This document shows, piece by piece, positions 23,822 to 31,297 of a stretch of DNA of 64,000 bases; position 1 is the stretch's first letter; each line of letters starts with the position of its first letter. The notes beneath the pieces were generated by a model, which ran no database searches, was not told where the DNA came from, and saw nothing but the letters and a program-made list of their open reading frames with translations. Position numbers and translations under genes: made by a program. This DNA comes from an uncultured Anaerolineae bacterium (GTDB lineage Bacteria; Chloroflexota; Anaerolineae; Anaerolineales; Villigracilaceae), in assembly GCA_903875215.1 (NCBI GenBank), contig CAIQVH010000031.1:434001-498000 (forward strand), written 5' to 3'.

Positions 23822-24760
23822 ATGGATGACGCCAAACTGAACGAAATCGTGGAATCCGTTGTCCGGCAGTTAATCGCCGCCGGAGCCGTCTCCGGGATTC
23901 AACCCGCTGGAGCCGCTGTTCCGTTAAATCAGCCTGCTCCCGCCCCCATCTCCGCCCCTCCGACCTCCAACCTCGGCCTGACCATCGATCTCCCCGACCC
24001 GACCAGCGAAGACCTGCGCTACAAAGCGCGCGTGAAAAACCCATGCGACCCCGCCGCGCTGACGGAATTGATCAACTCCACCACCGCCCGCATCGGCGTC
24101 GGACGCGCCGGGCCGCGCTACAATACCGCCTCGCTGCTGCTCTTCCAGGGCGACCACGCTGTCACGCAAGACGCCCTTTACCGCGATATTGACCAGAAAT
24201 TGCTCGACGAATTCGGCCTGTTCACCGTCCAGACCAACGTCACCGGCGGCAAGGAACAATTCCTGCTGCGCCCCGATCTCGGCCGCCAGCTGAGTGACGA
24301 AGCCAAACGCACCCTGGCCGACAAATGCATCAAAAAGCCCAATGTCCAGCTCGTCGTCGGGGATGGCCTCAGCGCCGCGGCCATCGAGGCCAACCTGCGC
24401 CAGATTTTCCCGGTCATCAAACAGGGCGTCCAGGCCGCCGGGCTGACGATGGGCACGCCTTTCCACATCAAATACTGCCGCGTCGGCGTGATGAACGACA
24501 TCGGCGACGCCATCCAGCCGGACGTGGTCCTGCTGCTGATTGGCGAGCGCCCCGGCCTGGGCCGCGCCGAGTCGATGAGCGTTTACATGGGCTTCAAGCC
24601 CAAATCCGGCGAAACCGATGCTGACCGCGATGTCGTCTGTAACATCTTTGAAAACGGCGGCACCAATCCGCTCGAAGCCGGCGCCTTTGTGGTGCAGATT
24701 GCCCAGAAAATGAGACAGAATCAGGCCTCGGGCGTGAAATTGAAACTGGCAACACAATAG
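23822..24760 (+). CDS. eutC: Ethanolamine ammonia-lyase small subunit EutC
   Basis: A 312-residue cobalamin-binding subunit, slightly longer than the E. coli protein (295). Residues 4 to 20 (AKLNEIVESVVRQLIAA) form an amphipathic helix followed by a Pro/Ala-rich linker to about residue 55, the layout of an encapsulation peptide that directs enzymes into the shell. The core from DLPDPTSEDLRYKARVKNP on is typical, with GRAGPRYNT, DGLSAAAIEANL and LIGERPGLG. It starts after TTGGAGATGGAAA. The next canonical eut gene is displaced by a four-helix-bundle cassette. Confidence 0.95.
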   Translation: MDDAKLNEIVESVVRQLIAAGAVSGIQPAGAAVPLNQPAPAPISAPPTSNLGLTIDLPDPTSEDLRYKARVKNPCDPAALTELINSTTARIGVGRAGPRYNTASLLLFQGDHAVTQDALYRDIDQKLLDEFGLFTVQTNVTGGKEQFLLRPDLGRQLSDEAKRTLADKCIKKPNVQLVVGDGLSAAAIEANLRQIFPVIKQGVQAAGLTMGTPFHIKYCRVGVMNDIGDAIQPDVVLLLIGERPGLGRAESMSVYMGFKPKSGETDADRDVVCNIFENGGTNPLEAGAFVVQIAQKMRQNQASGVKLKLATQ

Positions 24761-25215
24761 AGGCGACAAGTTAGAGGCTAGAGGTCAGAGATGGCGATCA
24801 CGACGTATCGAGATTTGGAAGTTTATCAACTTTCGATGCAAGCGTTGGTCAAAGTTCACAAGATTGTACTGAGTTTCCCCGATTTCGAACGTTTCGCGCT
24901 GGCTGACCAACTGCGCCGGGCAAGCAAATCCATCCCGGCCAAGATCGCAGAAGGCGACGGACGGCGCAAATCGGCTAAGGAGTTCAAGCATTTTCTGTCA
25001 ATCTCGCTTGGTTCGGCCAATGAAATGGTTGTGCATCTGGAAATCACCCGTCAACTCGAGTACGCTAAAGTTGACACCTGCAACGAACTGATTGAGGAGT
25101 ACACACTCATCTGCAAAAAACTCTACCGGCTGATGGAAAACTGGCACACCATACCCACATCCCAGCCGCCTCCGACCTGCGACTTCTAACCTCCGACCTC
25201 CAAACAGGAGCCCTT
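24761..25215. repeat. Inserted cassette with inverted flanks between eutC and eutL
   Basis: Left flank (24761-24790) carries TTAGAGGCTAGAGGTCAGAG. The right flank (25165-25209) carries CGACCTGCGACTTCTAACCT and CTCCGACCTCC, whose complement repeats the AGGTCGGAG theme. The only gene between is the four-helix-bundle protein. The 15-mer CCGACCTGCGACTTC at 25172 recurs at 52441 inside the end of minE. Confidence 0.5.
24791..25189 (+). CDS. Four-helix-bundle protein (23S rRNA intervening-sequence / bAvd-like family)
   Basis: A 132-residue basic helical protein of the family first found in intervening sequences of 23S rRNA genes and related to the accessory protein Avd of diversity-generating retroelements. 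Diagnostic parts are YRDLEVYQLSMQALVKVHKI at 6-25, FALADQLRRASKSIPAKIAEG and KEFKHFLSISLGSANEM. Its last residues, PPPTCDF, are encoded by the flanking repeat. No rRNA, reverse transcriptase or template repeat is nearby. It has no known role in ethanolamine use, so it is most likely a small mobile-like cassette that settled in the operon. It could instead bind RNA of the operon; this is untested. Confidence 0.88.
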   Translation: MAITTYRDLEVYQLSMQALVKVHKIVLSFPDFERFALADQLRRASKSIPAKIAEGDGRRKSAKEFKHFLSISLGSANEMVVHLEITRQLEYAKVDTCNELIEEYTLICKKLYRLMENWHTIPTSQPPPTCDF

Positions 25216-25872
25216 ATGGCAATTCTCGATCCCATCTACGCCAACCCGCTCTCGGTTCGCATGATCCCCAACGTGGACGCGAACTTTGCCGAACAGTTAA
25301 AACTGCGTCCCGACCAGCGCTCCATCGGCCTGATCACCGCCGACAACGATGACGCCACCTACGTCTCGGTCGACGAAGCCACCAAAATGGCCGATGTTGA
25401 AGTCGTTTATGCGCGCTCGTTCTACGCTGGTGCGGCGCACGCCTCCGGGCTGCTTTCCGGCGAGATTATGGCGATCATCGCCGGGCCAAATCCTGCCGAA
25501 GTGCGCGCCGGGTTGAACGCGGCACTAAACTACATGAAAACAGAAGCCATCTGGTATTCGGCCAACGAGAATGCTTCGATCGCCTTTTTCCCGCACCTGA
25601 TCTCGCGCACCGGATCGTACCTTTCCACAGTTTGCAACATTCCGCTGGGAGCGCCGATCGCTTACCTGGTTGCGCCGCCGATGGAAGGCCTGGTCGCGCT
25701 GGATGCGGCGCTCAAGGCTTCGGCCACACAAATCTGCTCGCTGACCATGCCGCCATCCGAAACCAACTACATGGGCGTCATGCTGACCGGCGACCAGCCC
25801 GCCTGCAAAGCCGCGACGATTGCCTTCCGCGAGATGGTGCTCGAAATCGCCCGCGACCCAATAAAATACTAG
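25216..25872 (+). CDS. eutL: Microcompartment shell protein EutL (tandem BMC)
   Basis: A 218-residue shell protein with two BMC domains in tandem that forms pseudohexameric trimers, in E. coli with a gated pore. The opening IYANPLSVRMIPNVDANFAEQL and the segments IGLITADNDDATYVSVDEATKMADVEVVYA and ENASIAFFPHLISRTGSYLS are typical of EutL. It starts after AACAGGAG. It follows the inserted cassette and precedes a pair of head-to-head repeats. Confidence 0.94.
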   Translation: MAILDPIYANPLSVRMIPNVDANFAEQLKLRPDQRSIGLITADNDDATYVSVDEATKMADVEVVYARSFYAGAAHASGLLSGEIMAIIAGPNPAEVRAGLNAALNYMKTEAIWYSANENASIAFFPHLISRTGSYLSTVCNIPLGAPIAYLVAPPMEGLVALDAALKASATQICSLTMPPSETNYMGVMLTGDQPACKAATIAFREMVLEIARDPIKY

Positions 25873-25999: not shown

Positions 26000-27496
26000 A
26001 TGCCCGAACTCGATAACGATCTGCTTTCCATCCAAGAAGCCCGCACACTGGCTGTCGCCGCGCGCGAGGCGCAGAAACAATTTGTCCACGCCTCGCAAGC
26101 CGAGGTCGACCGTATCTGCCAGGCCATGGCCGAAGCCGCCTATGCCGCATCCGAACGCCTAGGCCGCATGGCCGCCGAAGAAACCGGCTACGGCGTCCCG
26201 GAGCATAAAACGCTCAAAAACGTGCTCTCATCCAAACTGCTTTGGGAAGCCATCAAGGACATTCCCACGGTCGGCGTGGTCCGACACGATATCAAAAAGA
26301 AAATCTACGACATCGCCTGGCCGATGGGCGTGGTGGCGGCACTGACTCCCAGCACCAACCCGACTTCGACCACCATGTTCAAGACGCTGATCTCGGTCAA
26401 GGCGCGCAATGGCATCGTCGTTGCGCCGCACCCGTATGCGGCGAAATGTTCCGCAGAAACCTCGCGCCTGATGGCAGAAGCCGGGGAACGCGCCGGGATG
26501 CCCAAAGGGCTGGTTTCGTGCATGACGAAGGTCACTTTGCCGGGCACGCAGGAATTGATGAAGCACAAATATGTGGCCGTCATCCTGGCCACCGGCGGCT
26601 CGGATATGGTGCGCGCAGCGCATTCAGTCGGGAAACCGGCTTACGGCGTCGGCCCCGGCAATGTGCCGGTCTACGTCGACCGGTCGGCGGATCTGGCGCG
26701 AGCGGCGAAATATATCGTCGCTTCGAAGGCCTTCGATCATTCCGTGATTTGCGCCACTGAGCAGGCCGTCGTGGCCGATAAACCGATCGCGGCGCAGCTC
26801 GAAGAGTTGATGAAGGCTGAAGGCGCGTACTTCGTCAATGACGAGCAGGCCCGCGCCCTGGGCGAAATCCTGTTTGTCGGGCACCTGCCCAACCCGAAAT
26901 CGGTTGGCAAGAGTCCGCAGCAGCTGGCGCAGATGTGCGGGATCAGCGTCCCGGCTACCGCGCGGATTCTCGTCGCGAAGCTAAAAGGCGTCGGCCCGAG
27001 TGAACCGCTCTCCGGCGAGAAATTGACCACCGTCCTCGGCTGGTACGAGACTGACGGCTGGGAATCCGGCTGCGAGCGCAGTCTCGAACTGATCAATTAT
27101 GGCGGACGCGGCCACTCGCTGGTCATCCACGCCCAGGATGAAAAAGTCATCATGCAGTTCGGGTTGGAGAAACCGGTTTTCCGCATCCTGGTCAACACTT
27201 TTGGTACACTGGGCGCGACCGGATACACAACCGGTGTGATGCCGTCGATGACGCTCGGCTCTGGCGGGGTGGGCGGCGCAATTACGGGTGACAACATCAC
27301 CGTGCATCACCTGTACAATATCAAGCGCCTGGCCTATGAAATCAACCCGCCGCCGGAGGCTGCCATGCAGCCCGGTTCCACTGACGACCCGGCCCAGCTG
27401 GCCGGAAAAATATCCGCCGCCCCCGTTTCGGTCGGCGCGGCAGATGTTCAAATCGAGGAGATTGTCCGCCGCGTGCTGGCGGAGCTCAAAAAGTAA
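26000..27496 (+). CDS. eutE: CoA-acylating acetaldehyde dehydrogenase EutE
   Basis: A 498-residue enzyme that oxidises acetaldehyde to acetyl-CoA with NAD+ inside the shell. The ATG at 26000 is chosen because MPELDNDLLSIQEARTLAVAA starts the family core; the longer frame only translates the repeat. The core has APHPYAAKCSAET, the Rossmann region GGSDMVRAAHS and the catalytic cysteine in HSVICATEQ. E. coli EutE carries its shell-targeting helix at the N-terminus, but here a Gln/Pro/Ala-rich linker ends in IEEIVRRVLAELKK at the extreme C-terminus, an encapsulation-peptide-like amphipathic helix. Length exceeds E. coli EutE (467) because of this tail. Confidence 0.94.
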   Translation: MPELDNDLLSIQEARTLAVAAREAQKQFVHASQAEVDRICQAMAEAAYAASERLGRMAAEETGYGVPEHKTLKNVLSSKLLWEAIKDIPTVGVVRHDIKKKIYDIAWPMGVVAALTPSTNPTSTTMFKTLISVKARNGIVVAPHPYAAKCSAETSRLMAEAGERAGMPKGLVSCMTKVTLPGTQELMKHKYVAVILATGGSDMVRAAHSVGKPAYGVGPGNVPVYVDRSADLARAAKYIVASKAFDHSVICATEQAVVADKPIAAQLEELMKAEGAYFVNDEQARALGEILFVGHLPNPKSVGKSPQQLAQMCGISVPATARILVAKLKGVGPSEPLSGEKLTTVLGWYETDGWESGCERSLELINYGGRGHSLVIHAQDEKVIMQFGLEKPVFRILVNTFGTLGATGYTTGVMPSMTLGSGGVGGAITGDNITVHHLYNIKRLAYEINPPPEAAMQPGSTDDPAQLAGKISAAPVSVGAADVQIEEIVRRVLAELKK

Positions 27497-27622: not shown

Positions 27623-27943
27623 ATGCCAGTAGACGTTTCCATGATTGCTCTCGGAATGGTCGAGACCAAAGGCCTGATCGGCTCCATCGAAGCCGCGGAT
27701 GCGATGGTCAAAGCCGCCAATGTGACCCTGATCGGCAGTGAATATGTCGGCGGCGGGTTTGTGACCGTGATGGTGCGCGGTGATGTCGGCGCTGTAAAAG
27801 CCGCCACAGATGCCGGTGCCGCTGCGGCCAAGCGCGTTGGCGAGCTGGTGTCGGTGCACGTCATTCCTCGCCCGCATGCGGATGTCGAGATGATCCTGCC
27901 CCAACAGAGCAAAGGCTCCTTCGGCGGCAAATCCGGCAAGTAA
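27623..27943 (+). CDS. eutM: Major hexameric microcompartment shell protein (BMC-H, EutM-like)
   Basis: A 106-residue single BMC-domain protein that forms the hexameric tiles of the shell. [30 protein letters not shown], the G-G-G-F-V-T pore-side loop, [35 protein letters not shown] and the short C-terminal tail are all standard. It starts after AAGGAGAG. It is the only single-domain BMC-H gene of the locus, so it probably makes up most of the facets. Confidence 0.95.
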
Positions 27944-28031: not shown

Positions 28032-28595
28032 ATGCCGAGACAACTCTTTACTGCTGCCGACATTCGACGTGTCGCGCGTGAGCAGCTATCTGACCTGCTG
28101 ATTCTCAGCCCGGACGATCTTATCACCCCCGAGGCTGTGGATGTCGCGCGCGAATTAGGCGTCCGGCTGGTAAGGGAAGCTCCCTCCAGCCCGGCAGCGG
28201 CCGACCCTCCGACACGGCCTGCCCTTCCAGTGGCGCTCCCGCCGCTGAAAATGGTGCTTGGCGCCTCGGTCGTTTTGGATCCTTTCGGCGAGGGGCTGGC
28301 AACGCCCGGCACCAATGTCCGCCTGAAGGATGTGGTCAGCTCCGCAGATGGTTCCTCGATGGCAGCCGGTTACATGGCGCTCGAAAAGGGCGAATTTCCC
28401 TGGACGCTGACCTACGACGAGGTCGATATCGTGCTTGAAGGCGAGCTGGTCATCACGCGCGGCGAGGTCGCCGTACATGGTGGCCCCGGTGACGTGATTT
28501 TTATACCCAAAGGCTCAAGCATCACCTTTGGCACACCCAGCCAGGTGCGCTTCATTTATGTCGCCTTCCCGGCCAACTGGAACGAACTCGGATGA
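28032..28595 (+). CDS. eutQ: EutQ-like cupin protein of the microcompartment
   Basis: A 187-residue protein. The ATG at 28032 is preferred because MPRQLFTAADIRRVAREQ begins the family N-terminus and AAGG lies at the right distance. Residues 1 to 50 are a small module shared with the next gene and with the gene at 31007, then a Pro/Ala linker to about 72, then a cupin barrel (LKDVVSSADGSSMAAGYMAL to the end). E. coli EutQ (233) is essential for ethanolamine use under anoxia and Salmonella EutQ has acetate kinase activity. The C-terminus overlaps the eutT start (ATGA), so the two are coupled. The acetate kinase role here is inferred from family alone. Confidence 0.85.
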   Translation: MPRQLFTAADIRRVAREQLSDLLILSPDDLITPEAVDVARELGVRLVREAPSSPAAADPPTRPALPVALPPLKMVLGASVVLDPFGEGLATPGTNVRLKDVVSSADGSSMAAGYMALEKGEFPWTLTYDEVDIVLEGELVITRGEVAVHGGPGDVIFIPKGSSITFGTPSQVRFIYVAFPANWNELG

Positions 28596-29380
28596 GCTTC
28601 ATCACCGAAAGCGAACTGCGCGAACTCTGGCAGAATGGGCGCGGGCAACTGCCGCCCTTTCCGCCTGGCACACGTTTTTCGACCGCCGCGCAGGATTTTC
28701 TCAAGACCAACCGCGTTGAAGTCCGTTTTGATGCCACGCCGACCGTTCAAGCCAATTCAAATCCTGATTGGAACAAGCCAGGAACATTCCCGGTCGTGCT
28801 GACTGGCCCCATGCCGGTCTGTAGTGAGTGCGGCCAACCGCTGCATGCCAAGCCGGAACATTTGACGCAAATCGACGCCGGGCATTTTGCCCCGAAAACG
28901 AGCCCGCGGCTGGTGTTTCGCGGCCGCATGGACAGCTTGAACGCCCTGGTAATGTTGACCGCCTCAACGGCGCGGCGTTGTGAACTACCCGAACTGGCCC
29001 AGCAACTCGACACGCTGGCCGCTTATTGTCGCGAGATTATGAGCGCCGAATACAACCTGCGCCCGGTCGCTGCGCTGACTCTGCTCGGAAAAAGCGAGGC
29101 CGAACTGCACGAGATCTCGCACTGGCCCGACCGTCACCTCGGCATCCCGCATCTCGTCCCTGGCCCGCATGACCACGAGATGCTGCACTGGCTGAACGTG
29201 CTACGAACCCAGTCACGCGAGGTGGAAGTCGTCGCCCTGCAGGCTTTTCCATCCGATTCGTTCGACCCGGCGGGCATCGGTGCGGGTCTAGCCCGCGCAT
29301 TAAACCGTCTTTCCTCGGCCGTCTACGTGCTTGAACTGTATTTTCAGGCCGGGAAGCTGAGCTGGAAAGTAAAAGGATAG
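28592..29380 (+). CDS. eutT: Corrinoid ATP:co(I)rrinoid adenosyltransferase EutT
   Basis: A 262-residue enzyme that makes adenosylcobalamin from ATP and reduced cobalamin, as required by ethanolamine ammonia-lyase. It aligns along its length with E. coli EutT (267): N-terminal MSFITESELRELW module, the metal-binding Cys77 and Cys80 in PVCSECGQPL, the RLVFRGRMDSLNALVML helix and the closing ALNRLSSAVYVLELYF. EutT-type enzymes use this cysteine motif to hold Fe(II) or Zn(II). It overlaps the eutQ end by four bases. Confidence 0.9.
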   Translation: MSFITESELRELWQNGRGQLPPFPPGTRFSTAAQDFLKTNRVEVRFDATPTVQANSNPDWNKPGTFPVVLTGPMPVCSECGQPLHAKPEHLTQIDAGHFAPKTSPRLVFRGRMDSLNALVMLTASTARRCELPELAQQLDTLAAYCREIMSAEYNLRPVAALTLLGKSEAELHEISHWPDRHLGIPHLVPGPHDHEMLHWLNVLRTQSREVEVVALQAFPSDSFDPAGIGAGLARALNRLSSAVYVLELYFQAGKLSWKVKG

Positions 29381-29389
29381 TTAAAACGG

Positions 29390-29455
29390 TAGACGAGTAG
29401 GCGGCGTGACTTCGGTACGCCAGGAACGCTACTCAACCGCCGCCGTATCGAGACC
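29390..29455. repeat. GACGAGTAGGCGG...GTATCGAGACC repeat abutting eutJ
   Basis: It shares its ends and orientation with the copy at 25881 and has an internal CGGTACGCC. It ends at the base before the eutJ ATG, which therefore has no visible Shine-Dalgarno sequence. Confidence 0.6.
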
Positions 29456-30304
29456 ATGAACCCAAACCTGACCGAACTCCTTTCCCGCACCGACGCTGTG
29501 ATGAACGGCCGCTCCAACGGCTGGCATCCTGACCCTGAGCTGATTTCGCCGCTGGGCGAATATCGCGGCACTTTGCATGTCGGCGTGGATTTGGGCACCG
29601 CATATACCGTATTAATCGTATTGGACGAAACCTACCAGCCGATCGCCGGGGCTTACCAGTTCGCGCAAATCGTCCGCGACGGGTTGGTGGTGGACTTTGT
29701 CGGTGCGGTGGCGCTTTTGCGCGAGATGAAGGCTCGTGTGGAGTCAAAACTCGGTTTCGAGTTAAAATCCGCAGCGTCCTCTTATCCGCCCGGCGTGGCG
29801 CAGGCTGAAGTCCGCGCCACGGCGAATGTGCTGTATGCCGCCGGGCTGGAATGTTCCGGGCTGGTGGACGAACCGACCGCTGCCAATAACGTTCTGAAAA
29901 TCGAGGACGGCGCGATTGTGGATGTCGGCGGCGGCACAACCGGCATTGCCATCTTGGAAAATGGCAAGGTCGTTTATACTGCCGACGAGCCAACCGGCGG
30001 AACGCATTTCTCGCTGGTAATTGCAGGCGCAAAAAACATCAGTTTTGAACAGGCTGAGGAACTCAAGAAAAACCCCGTCGAGCAGCCGCGCCTGCTGCCG
30101 GTTATCCGCCCGGTGATGGAAAAAGTTGGAAGTATTGTCGGGCGTCACATCCGCGGCTATAACGTTAAAAAACTGTATCTGGTCGGCGGAACGTGCGCGT
30201 ACCCCGGCATGGATCGAGTCATTCAAGAATACACTGACATTGAAACCGTGGTTCCCGGCAGCCCGTTATTCGTCACCCCGCTGGGGATTGCCATGCACAA
30301 CTAA
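29456..30304 (+). CDS. eutJ: EutJ, Hsp70-like chaperonin of the ethanolamine operon
   Basis: A 282-residue protein of the actin/Hsp70-like ATPase fold, matching EutJ (about 278). GVDLGTAYTVLIVLDE near residue 43 is the phosphate-1 loop, VDEPTAANNVL and DVGGGTTGIAIL form the next nucleotide-binding elements, and GGTCAYPGM is the adenosine loop. The precise role of EutJ is not known; a chaperone or reactivation function is assumed. It ends nine bases before the next shell gene. Confidence 0.92.
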   Translation: MNPNLTELLSRTDAVMNGRSNGWHPDPELISPLGEYRGTLHVGVDLGTAYTVLIVLDETYQPIAGAYQFAQIVRDGLVVDFVGAVALLREMKARVESKLGFELKSAASSYPPGVAQAEVRATANVLYAAGLECSGLVDEPTAANNVLKIEDGAIVDVGGGTTGIAILENGKVVYTADEPTGGTHFSLVIAGAKNISFEQAEELKKNPVEQPRLLPVIRPVMEKVGSIVGRHIRGYNVKKLYLVGGTCAYPGMDRVIQEYTDIETVVPGSPLFVTPLGIAMHN

Positions 30305-30312
30305 GGAGAAAT

Positions 30313-30936
30313 ATGGGCGACCAATTTTCATTACGCTGTTACTCTTACATCGACCGTATGCAGCCGCAATACGCGGCTTTTGTGGGCACCGTGACCCAGG
30401 GCGACCTGCCCACCGAGGGCATGGCCGCGCTGTATATCGAGGTTGCGCCGGGCAACGAAGTTTTCCGCCTGGTGGATATCGCCGTCAAAGCGACGGAAGC
30501 CAAACCAGGCGCGCAGATCGTCGAGCGCGAATTTGGCATGTTCGAAATCCACTCCCGCTCGCAGTCGGAAGTGCTGGAAGCCGGGCGGATCGTGCTGGAA
30601 CGGATCGGGCTAAAAATCGAAGATCGCGTCAAACCGGAAATCGCATCGGTACAAATCATCACCAACATTGACCCGTATCAATCCCAACTGCTGAATCGTT
30701 TTCGGCGCGGCTCAATGCTCGTGCCCGGTGAAACCATGCTGGTGCTGGAATGCGCCCCGGCGGCGTATATCAACTACGCCCTGAATGAAGCCGAAAAAGG
30801 CGCGAACATCAAGGTGCTGCATGTCTCCTCGGTGGGACGGTTTGGCCGCATGTGGCTTTCCGGCTCCGAAGCAGAGATTTTAACGGCGCGCAACGCCGCG
30901 GTAACAGCCATTGAAAACATGGAAGGCAAAGGCTAG
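30313..30936 (+). CDS. Tandem shell protein with two EutS/PduU-like (permuted) BMC domains
   Basis: A 207-residue protein. Residues about 33 to 100 (MAALYIEVAPGNEVFRLVDIAVKATEAKPG...EAGRIVLERIGL) follow the EutS pattern in which a P-G-E/N-E loop leads into a D-x-A-x-K-A helix, the permuted BMC fold. Residues about 108 to 200 repeat a diverged version (VPGETMLVLECAPAAYINYALNEAEKGANI). EutS and PduU are single-domain hexamers; a tandem version would form trimers with pseudohexameric shape, perhaps at bent shell edges. It starts after AAGGAGA. Which shell position it fills is an inference. Confidence 0.8.
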   Translation: MGDQFSLRCYSYIDRMQPQYAAFVGTVTQGDLPTEGMAALYIEVAPGNEVFRLVDIAVKATEAKPGAQIVEREFGMFEIHSRSQSEVLEAGRIVLERIGLKIEDRVKPEIASVQIITNIDPYQSQLLNRFRRGSMLVPGETMLVLECAPAAYINYALNEAEKGANIKVLHVSSVGRFGRMWLSGSEAEILTARNAAVTAIENMEGKG

Positions 30937-30951
30937 TAGCCCCCCTTTGCT

Positions 30952-30982
30952 CCCCACCTTTGCGTTAATAGCGCAAAAGGGG
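30952..30982 (+). repeat. Hairpin before the small microcompartment-associated gene
   Basis: CCCC-A-CCTTTGCG faces GCGCAAAAGGGG around TTAATA. It has no T run and lies 25 bases before the next start, so it is probably an mRNA hairpin. Confidence 0.4.
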
Positions 30983-31006
30983 TAAAAGCCAGAAAGAAAG
31001 GTCAAC

Positions 31007-31297
31007 ATGCCAAAAATCTTTTACACCGAACGCGATATTGATGACTTGTACGCCCGCGGCGTAACCTGTCTCGACGTCCACGATGGCGTGGTACTGACCG
31101 ATCTGGCGCGCGAGCGGATGTTCAAATATGGCATGGCGCCCAACCGGGTCGATCCCAAAAAGCACGTCGAGGATGACCCATCTGCAGTGATCATTCACCG
31201 GGTCAAGGCGGCGGTGCTGGCTCGGCTGGACGGTCAGGTGGATGCGGCCATCCTGGAGGCTGTGGTGGCCCGCGTGGTAAGCGAAATGATGAAATAA
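31007..31297 (+). CDS. Small microcompartment-associated protein, unknown function
   Basis: A 96-residue protein I cannot assign to a named Eut or Pdu family. Residues 1 to 45 (YTERDIDDLYARGVTCLDVHDGVVLTDLARERMFKYGM) match in pattern the N-terminal modules of the EutQ and EutT proteins of this operon: aromatic, Thr/Ile, two residues, acidic-aliphatic, then G...L.., then L/F-T/S..A and a helix. Residues 60 to 96 form an amphipathic helix (VIIHRVKAAVLARLDG and AILEAVVARVVSEMMK) that resembles shell-targeting helices. It starts after AAAGG and is the last gene before a strong terminator. It may be an adaptor joining enzymes and shell. Confidence 0.75.
   Translation: MPKIFYTERDIDDLYARGVTCLDVHDGVVLTDLARERMFKYGMAPNRVDPKKHVEDDPSAVIIHRVKAAVLARLDGQVDAAILEAVVARVVSEMMK

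Follow-up and report, generated by a model that had tools for sequence, protein, structure and literature searches.

A segment of about 45 residues is shared by the N-termini of three proteins of an ethanolamine utilisation (eut) locus, and it is a real, mobile module linked to bacterial microcompartments (BMCs). The locus lies in a stretch of 64,000 nucleotides from an uncultured Anaerolineae bacterium, which we call the window (contig CAIQVH010000031.1 of assembly GCA_903875215.1, positions 434,001 to 498,000; coordinates below are those of the window). The three carriers are all on the + strand and start where a first, sequence-only reading of this DNA had placed them. In EutQ (28032..28595), the module (28035..28175) is followed by a short linker and a cupin domain (PF06249, residues 90-185, expectation value E 1.3e-33). 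In EutT (28592..29380), the module (28595..28729) and a linker precede the cobalamin adenosyltransferase domain (PF01923, residues 92-250). The third, a protein of 96 residues termed X96 (31007..31297), is made of the module (31010..31147), a linker and a two-helix tail (31178..31288, residues 58-94), with no further domain. We think it probable that the segment is a mobile docking module for the microcompartment shell and that X96 is a stand-alone adaptor between the shell and its cargo. The sequence-only reading had proposed a common docking module for shell or partner proteins, and this is still the best reading, particularly as helices H1/H2 of Salmonella EutQ (residues 9-41) were shown by others to fix that protein to the shell (PMC12487888). 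It had also held the remainders of the three proteins to be unrelated, and so they are (a cupin, an adenosyltransferase and a helix pair). The remainder of X96, its linker and tail, turns out to be meaningful in itself.

The three window sequences taken alone are weak pairwise proof of a common module. When their first 50 residues were compared by Smith-Waterman alignment with 5000 shuffles, the shuffles scored as high 410 times for EutQ and X96, 66 times for EutT and X96, and 4175 times for EutQ and EutT; the last is not significant, and direct comparison was dropped as proof. Families were therefore collected, those of EutQ and EutT coming from X96-bearing loci and from the records of E. coli, Klebsiella, Acetoanaerobium, Listeria, C. 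difficile and Cetobacterium. An iterative search started from X96 alone or from EutQ alone gathered the same 155 proteins. Among them are 15 of the 15 collected EutQs, EutQ of E. coli and, by its C-terminus, the TIGR02536 protein of C. difficile. In hhalign, the X96 against the EutQ modules reached a probability of 98.3%. On these sequence comparisons, the modules of EutQ and X96 are firmly homologous. A profile deprived of the three window rows, the other EutTs being kept, still finds all three window proteins (E 2e-14, with 6e-13 for EutQ and 9e-10 for EutT). With the module profile (A2), the whole 3.77 Mb genome gives three matches at E <= 1, which are X96 (E 1.9e-17), EutQ (6.7e-15) and EutT (4.9e-14), all rows of the profile. 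The common module is thus borne out by the profiles, firmly for EutQ and X96 and more indirectly for EutT. The motif first given for it, an aromatic residue before T or I and a second half of the L/F-T/S-x-x-A kind, is only approximate: EutT has I, and no aromatic residue, before T (FITESEL), and the second half in EutQ is ITPEA.

EutT is grouped with these modules less directly, through a chain of intermediates and a predicted topology. Started from EutT alone, the iterative search gathers 26 proteins: all 23 EutT frames (some of which are the same gene present in two loci) and, by their C-termini, the TIGR02536 proteins of Listeria and C. difficile and the EutD/PduL of Acetoanaerobium. The sole protein common to this set and to the X96-started one is the C. 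difficile TIGR02536, by its C-terminal segment. With a profile free of EutT, the best unrelated frame among 25,533 is found at E 2.5, and 14 of the 23 EutT frames score better than this (E 0.002-0.43). The profile-profile comparison of EutT with the other carriers reaches 97.5%, a value obtained once these carriers had been added, since EutT against X96 with few sequences gave only 18-22%. Several results do not favour the grouping: the searches started from X96 or EutQ recruited no EutT, the one started from EutT recruited no EutQ, and the EutT-free profile puts 9 of the 23 EutT frames below the best unrelated one (E 4.8, 15, and seven at 32-71), the window EutT itself being found only at E 32. 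The EutT segment could then be a small motif that resembles the EutQ/X96 module by convergence and not by homology. Besides this E-value and the EutQ-EutT pair scoring no better than shuffles, such convergence would be in line with a similar stretch (ITPAAREKL..GV) in glutamate dehydrogenase. However, the C. difficile C-terminus was reached from both sides, the 14 frames outrank everything unrelated, the profile-profile comparison is high, the order of predicted elements agrees between X96 and EutT, and a flavoprotein-like BMC protein (L204) is matched in its C-terminal module by positions 15-46 of the NCBIfam model for EutT (E 0.0012). We hold convergence to be quite unlikely. The EutT annotation itself is supported by PF01923 above its cut-off and by NF011595 over residues 2-249 (E 2.7e-34, 118.5 bits, where the curated cut-off is 226 bits). 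X96 has no match at E <= 1 in Pfam or NCBIfam, PF06249 (EutQ) and TIGR04493 (PduM) included; PF06249 is matched by the window EutQ and not by X96, so X96 is not a EutQ.

The AlphaFold2 models are consistent with a common unit. In X96, the module is predicted as beta-alpha-beta-beta-alpha-beta, with strands at residues 4-6, 21-24, 28-30 and 44-47 and helices at 8-16 and 32-40, and its predicted local distance difference test (pLDDT) by block is 83-87 over residues 1-40 and 77 for 41-50. The EutT model has helices at 6-15 and 31-39 and bridges of one or two residues at 3-4, 23, 28-29 and 46, with a block pLDDT of 83-88 over residues 1-40. Different folds, which would have spoken against a shared module, were not seen between these two models, in which the elements follow in the same order with similar spacing, agreement being judged by that order and spacing. 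Beyond the module, X96 shows a linker stretch of pLDDT 54, then helices at 58-74 and 80-94 (block pLDDT 64-72). As a whole, the X96 model is moderate (mean pLDDT 74, predicted template modelling score 0.43), which counts somewhat against the docking and adaptor reading. Searches of solved structures with the module, EutT and X96 returned nothing meaningful; the top match of the module, Tako8, was eight stretches of 2-3 bits. Foldseek and VIA-align gave no match to the X96 model at E <= 0.001, the best Z scores (5.0 for the tail, 4.7 for the module) being to unrelated proteins, and the virus integrases that Foldseek listed were put down to chance.

The association of the module with microcompartments is marked. 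Across the phylum Chloroflexota (301 genomes), a match at E <= 1e-4 is found in 12 of the 23 genomes with a BMC gene over cut-off and in 0 of the 278 others (Fisher p 1.5e-15), where one of the 278 has a BMC match under the cut-off and at least three of the 12 (G000, G055, G148) contributed rows to the profile. The four matching genomes outside the order of the window (G361, G483, G520, G564) owe their match to other carriers; in three of them this is RpiB, of which the profile contains no row. The 198 Desulfobacterota genomes yield 11 with a match at E <= 1e-3. Of these, 8 belong to the 12 genomes whose BMC genes pass the cut-off, G150 having contributed one row, and 3 to the 186 others. The latter three match half of the module only, in frames of the glutamate dehydrogenase kind (L164 by scan, L165 and L166 by likeness); these frames and L170 were treated as decoys, L164 being the scanned one of the four. 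Among 150 close relatives, 49 have X96-like matches: 48 of the 57 that are BMC-positive and 1 of the 93 that are BMC-negative. The enrichment in microcompartment-bearing genomes that the sequence-only reading called for is therefore found. In whole-record searches, all matches fall within the eut locus in Acetoanaerobium (3), Cetobacterium (2) and Klebsiella (2), and Listeria has two there and a weak one elsewhere (E 0.0098), several of the matching segments of these four records being rows of the profile.

Counting the other way are the 11 of 23 BMC-positive Chloroflexota with no module match at E <= 1e-4 and the 9 of 57 BMC-positive relatives with no X96 match, of which G029, G038 and G141 also have no module match at E <= 0.01. 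In G118 and G029, the contig ends soon after the EutQ or the BMC-H gene, and the absence of X96 may stem from this; the G118 EutQ bears the module. G038 has a frame with the linker and tail of X96 but no module (L213:6551-6784). G106, G131 and G143 have a module-bearing RpiB, G099 and G124 a TIGR02536-like protein, and G141 nothing; the module E-values in G099, G131 and G124 (6e-4 to 3.5e-3) are weak taken alone. The sole BMC-negative relative with X96, G019, has no PF00936 match and encodes a class-III aminotransferase with an N-terminal module (L043:5252-6745, - strand). As this module-bearing enzyme is also present, the assembly may lack its shell genes, perhaps those of an unassembled amino-alcohol microcompartment. 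In all, 80 loci were kept from 110 X96 relatives in named genomes, 77 being taken from their labels as Chloroflexota and one each labelled Desulfobacteraceae, Edwardsbacteria and Lokiarchaeota. The X96 labelled Lokiarchaeota (L108:162-515) is near-identical to that of an Anaerolineaceae bin (L111), and its genome (G152) has no BMC match; it is probably on a contaminating contig in an archaeal bin.

The role of the module is suggested by Salmonella EutQ, as portrayed in the relevant passages of Yang et al. 2025 (PMC12487888). Its residues 1-99 are sufficient to target superfolder green fluorescent protein (sfGFP). In this segment, H1/H2 (9-41) serve for the shell, residues 42-61 are flexible, and H3/H4 (62-99) serve for the EutC and EutE peptides. 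Another account, in PMC4827028, has EutM lost in pull-downs by EutQ without its first 100 residues. The same source places EutQ on the cytosolic face of EutM, and an E. coli study left the place of EutQ open, according to the part of it that deals with this protein (PMC11334477); both count against the docking reading. The module could also be a core-assembly domain, acting through cargo-cargo or module-module contacts to gather EutT, EutQ, RpiB and others into an enzyme core, with no shell contact. Several carriers are enzymes, and the X96 tail and several carriers (e.g. the N-termini of RpiB and TIGR02536) show encapsulation-peptide-like helices, a term that throughout denotes our reading of the sequences. 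Moreover, PduM, a probable carrier, is reported to remain with cargo and not with shell when PduB 1-37 is missing (PMC9132943). In Salmonella, however, EutQ without 62-99 remained with shell assemblies and EutQ without 9-41 remained with cargo, and nuclear magnetic resonance (NMR) recorded no shifts in H1/H2 caused by cargo peptide (passages of PMC12487888), so we rate a pure core-assembly role as unlikely. That the module senses a ligand, such as a corrinoid or a nucleotide, instead of binding a protein is very improbable: EutT handles B12 and ATP, and EutQ is reported as an acetate kinase (in a passage of PMC12487888), but no common ligand is obvious for RpiB, an aminotransferase, a ferredoxin-like protein and PduL, all of which are carriers.

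Returning to shell docking, X96 has two features of a linker of the EutQ 1-99 type, the homologous H1/H2 module at the N-terminus and the layout of a flexible linker followed by a helix pair. The tail was compared by profile with H3/H4 of EutQ, and of 2000 shuffles 4 scored as high for E. coli, a modest result, 3 for Klebsiella, 14 for L162 and 0 for L167, with 37 for the EutQ of G148; as negative controls, the window EutQ and EutT gave 848 and 780. The small proteins of Acetoanaerobium and Cetobacterium gave 90 and 45 of 2000. This is suggestive of a sequence relationship between the X96 tail and H3/H4. Two points run counter to it. The EutC peptide does nearly as well with the tail profile (6/2000 shuffles, and 35/2000 for the EutE peptide), and the tails of two Desulfobacterota small proteins do not match it (527/2000 and 591/2000). 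Since shuffling does not preserve amphipathy, the tail may just be an encapsulation-peptide-like helix pair and no true homologue of H3/H4, although such a pair could still co-bundle with cargo peptides.

If so, the tail might itself be a cargo tag and X96 a small passenger or spacer, which captures nothing. The similar scores of the EutC peptide and of H3/H4 would fit, as would the likeness of the last tail helix to the EutE and EutC peptides. Against it, the tail is a helix pair placed like H3/H4 after a linker; X96 has no other domain that could be the cargo, and 30 of the 49 genomes with X96 have no strong EutQ. We leave this reading a real but minor chance. Two of these 30 genomes (G077, G081) have a divergent EutQ. 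One EutQ-less locus, that of Pelolinea submarina (L145), consists of DeoC, a pentamer, an aldehyde dehydrogenase, a BMC-H, an EutJ-like protein, a BMC-T, X96 and two pentamers, and resembles the SPU type. A strong EutQ is present in 20 genomes, and 19 of them have X96, the exception being G118, whose contig ends about 1.2 kb past EutQ.

The window EutQ lacks the H3/H4 helix pair: residues 61-121 of E. coli EutQ, which include H3/H4 by Salmonella numbering, have no counterpart in it, and only 23 residues separate its module from the cupin. This gap is 15-32 residues in 21 of 22 EutQ-like frames, the other (G148) having 49 with one encapsulation-peptide-like helix; the 22 frames are what remains of 27 PF06249 matches in 25 genomes once five (L194-L198) under the cupin-profile threshold of 1e-8 are left out. 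In the mechanism that we favour, EutQ and EutT, since each bears the module, would both be held at the shell, EutT by analogy with EutQ. The X96 module would dock on the BMC-H or BMC-T shell tiles, and its flexible linker and two-helix tail would catch the encapsulation peptides of the cargo, candidates being the EutC N-terminus (23822..23884, + strand; read from sequence and by analogy with Salmonella EutC 1-20) and the EutE aldehyde dehydrogenase C-terminus (27440..27493, + strand), both encapsulation-peptide-like. A separate protein, X96, would in this way do the job of residues 1-99 of Salmonella EutQ, and because the cargo-binding helices are absent from it, the window EutQ would be a tethered enzyme only. 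That the modules of EutT and X96 bind the shell, and that the tail binds peptides, is inferred.

The module is found on many other proteins. It is N-terminal in the three window proteins; elsewhere it is also found C-terminally and on other enzymes. N-terminal carriers are EutQ, EutT, X96-like small proteins, the class-III aminotransferase, RpiB and a BFD [2Fe-2S] protein. C-terminal ones are a EutD/PduL (L152) and TIGR02536 proteins with their weaker or flavoprotein-like relatives (L153-L155, L159, L161, L163, L169, L204). With its own row left out, each of L152-L155 still matches: the Acetoanaerobium EutD/PduL at 1.2e-8 and the TIGR02536 proteins of Listeria, C. difficile and Cetobacterium at 3.3e-9, 8.3e-7 and 5.7e-5. 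For the small proteins outside Chloroflexota, which are less sure, the same exercise gives 3.5e-6 in Acetoanaerobium, 0.0042 in Cetobacterium and 0.42 for the two of Desulfobacterota; with all four left out, Acetoanaerobium is at 0.0059 and Cetobacterium at 4.6. EutQ has no module in the loci of Acetoanaerobium, Listeria, C. difficile and Cetobacterium, where its start is a single encapsulation-peptide-like helix; the module is carried there by EutT in all four, by TIGR02536 in three and by EutD/PduL in Acetoanaerobium. Acetoanaerobium and Cetobacterium also have, less surely, an X96-like protein of 88-89 residues with the module. The C-terminus of Listeria PduM scores 14.9 bits with an inclusive module profile, a value reached by 0 of 5000 shuffles; from this one sequence, PduM probably carries the module at its C-terminus.

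Several of these architectures also contain an encapsulation-peptide-like helix. In RpiB (PF02502) of BMC-positive Chloroflexota (L202, L203, L205, L230-L232), this helix is followed by the module and then by the catalytic domain. The BFD-type protein of BMC-bearing Desulfobacterota has an N-terminal module and such a helix (L158:982-1638, - strand, assigned by scan; L160:1441-2145, + strand, by likeness), and is possibly a shell-tethered redox protein. The flavoprotein-like protein (PF02441) has the helix at the N-terminus and the module at the C-terminus (L204:1471-2328, - strand, scanned; L206, by likeness).

In the window, the eut locus reads EutN-type pentamer, EutA, EutB, EutC, EutL-type tandem BMC, EutE, EutM-type BMC-H, EutQ, EutT, EutJ, CcmP-like BMC-T and X96. 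Going by the published description in PMC8217296, we take it to resemble type EUT3, a type whose BMC-T(dp) is described there as related to that of SPU6 loci. The candidate docking partners are the EutM-type BMC-H (27623..27943, + strand; PF00936, E 4.3e-29) and the EutL-type tandem protein (25216..25872, + strand; two stretches of PF00936). The CcmP-like BMC-T (30313..30936, + strand; NF053796, E 3.3e-77, under the cut-off of that model) lies directly upstream of X96 and is a conserved neighbour. There are 80 X96-type proteins, counting that of the window, and for 74 of them the contig extends at least 900 bp upstream; a BMC-T gene ends within 300 bp in 71 of these 74 and within 1500 bp in 73. 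The locus also encodes, in the interval from eutC to the EutL-type gene, a protein of the 23S rRNA-intervening-sequence type (24791-25189, + strand; PF05635, E 1.6e-31).

How enzymes reach the shell is an open question for most microcompartments. It is quite possible, though we advance it tentatively, that proteins of many different catabolic microcompartments (Eut, SPU, Pdu and others) attach to the shell by one and the same mobile docking module. Placed N- or C-terminally on at least eight families, it would unite linkers until now regarded as distinct (EutQ, PduM and TIGR02536), and stand-alone X96-like adaptors (of Chloroflexota and, on weaker evidence, Acetoanaerobium, Cetobacterium and Desulfobacterota) would bridge shell and cargo where EutQ is absent or has no bridge. 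Yang et al. 2025 (PMC12487888) point out that the first three helices are missing from the EutQ of Enterococcus faecalis and Listeria, where assembly may be different in their view; stand-alone adaptors and TIGR02536 are concrete candidates for the missing part. If true, this would also suggest a function for several microcompartment genes of "unknown function". One of these, as it is called in the relevant part of PMC3483176, is CD1921, which we take from its operon position to be the C. difficile TIGR02536 "eut_hyp" gene. It would further provide a portable tag of about 45 residues with which designed shells could be loaded. We found no description of a shared module in the literature searched, which left out most subscription journals and all preprints; the passages of PMC12487888 on PduB, homologs and EutT are silent on one, and the word PduM is absent there.

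Among known systems, Salmonella EutQ 1-99 is the closest, as its H1/H2 correspond to the window modules and its linker and helix pair are ordered as in X96 (from the passages of PMC12487888 that describe them). There, however, module, H3/H4 and cupin are in one protein, whereas the window has the helix pair on X96 and none on the cupin protein. PduM (TIGR04493) is likewise reported, in the relevant part of PMC9132943, to act in shell-cargo binding in Pdu microcompartments, and its Listeria C-terminus resembles the module; it differs in that its module is C-terminal, the first half of it is not evident, and a search of the entire Listeria record with profile A2 (E <= 0.01) does not return it. 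The TIGR02536 proteins combine a C-terminal module with an encapsulation-peptide-like N-terminus, but they have a middle domain and are not stand-alone adaptors. With the carboxysome linkers CcmN and CsoS2, named in PMC12487888, the likeness is one of role, that of joining cargo to the shell. Encapsulation peptides, described in PMC8217296 as single helices of about 15-20 residues, are similar to the tail helices of X96, while the module, an alpha/beta unit of 45 residues predicted as two helices with short strands, is not such a single terminal amphipathic helix. X96 as a stand-alone adaptor would then be a new and testable form of an already known type of linker between shell and cargo.

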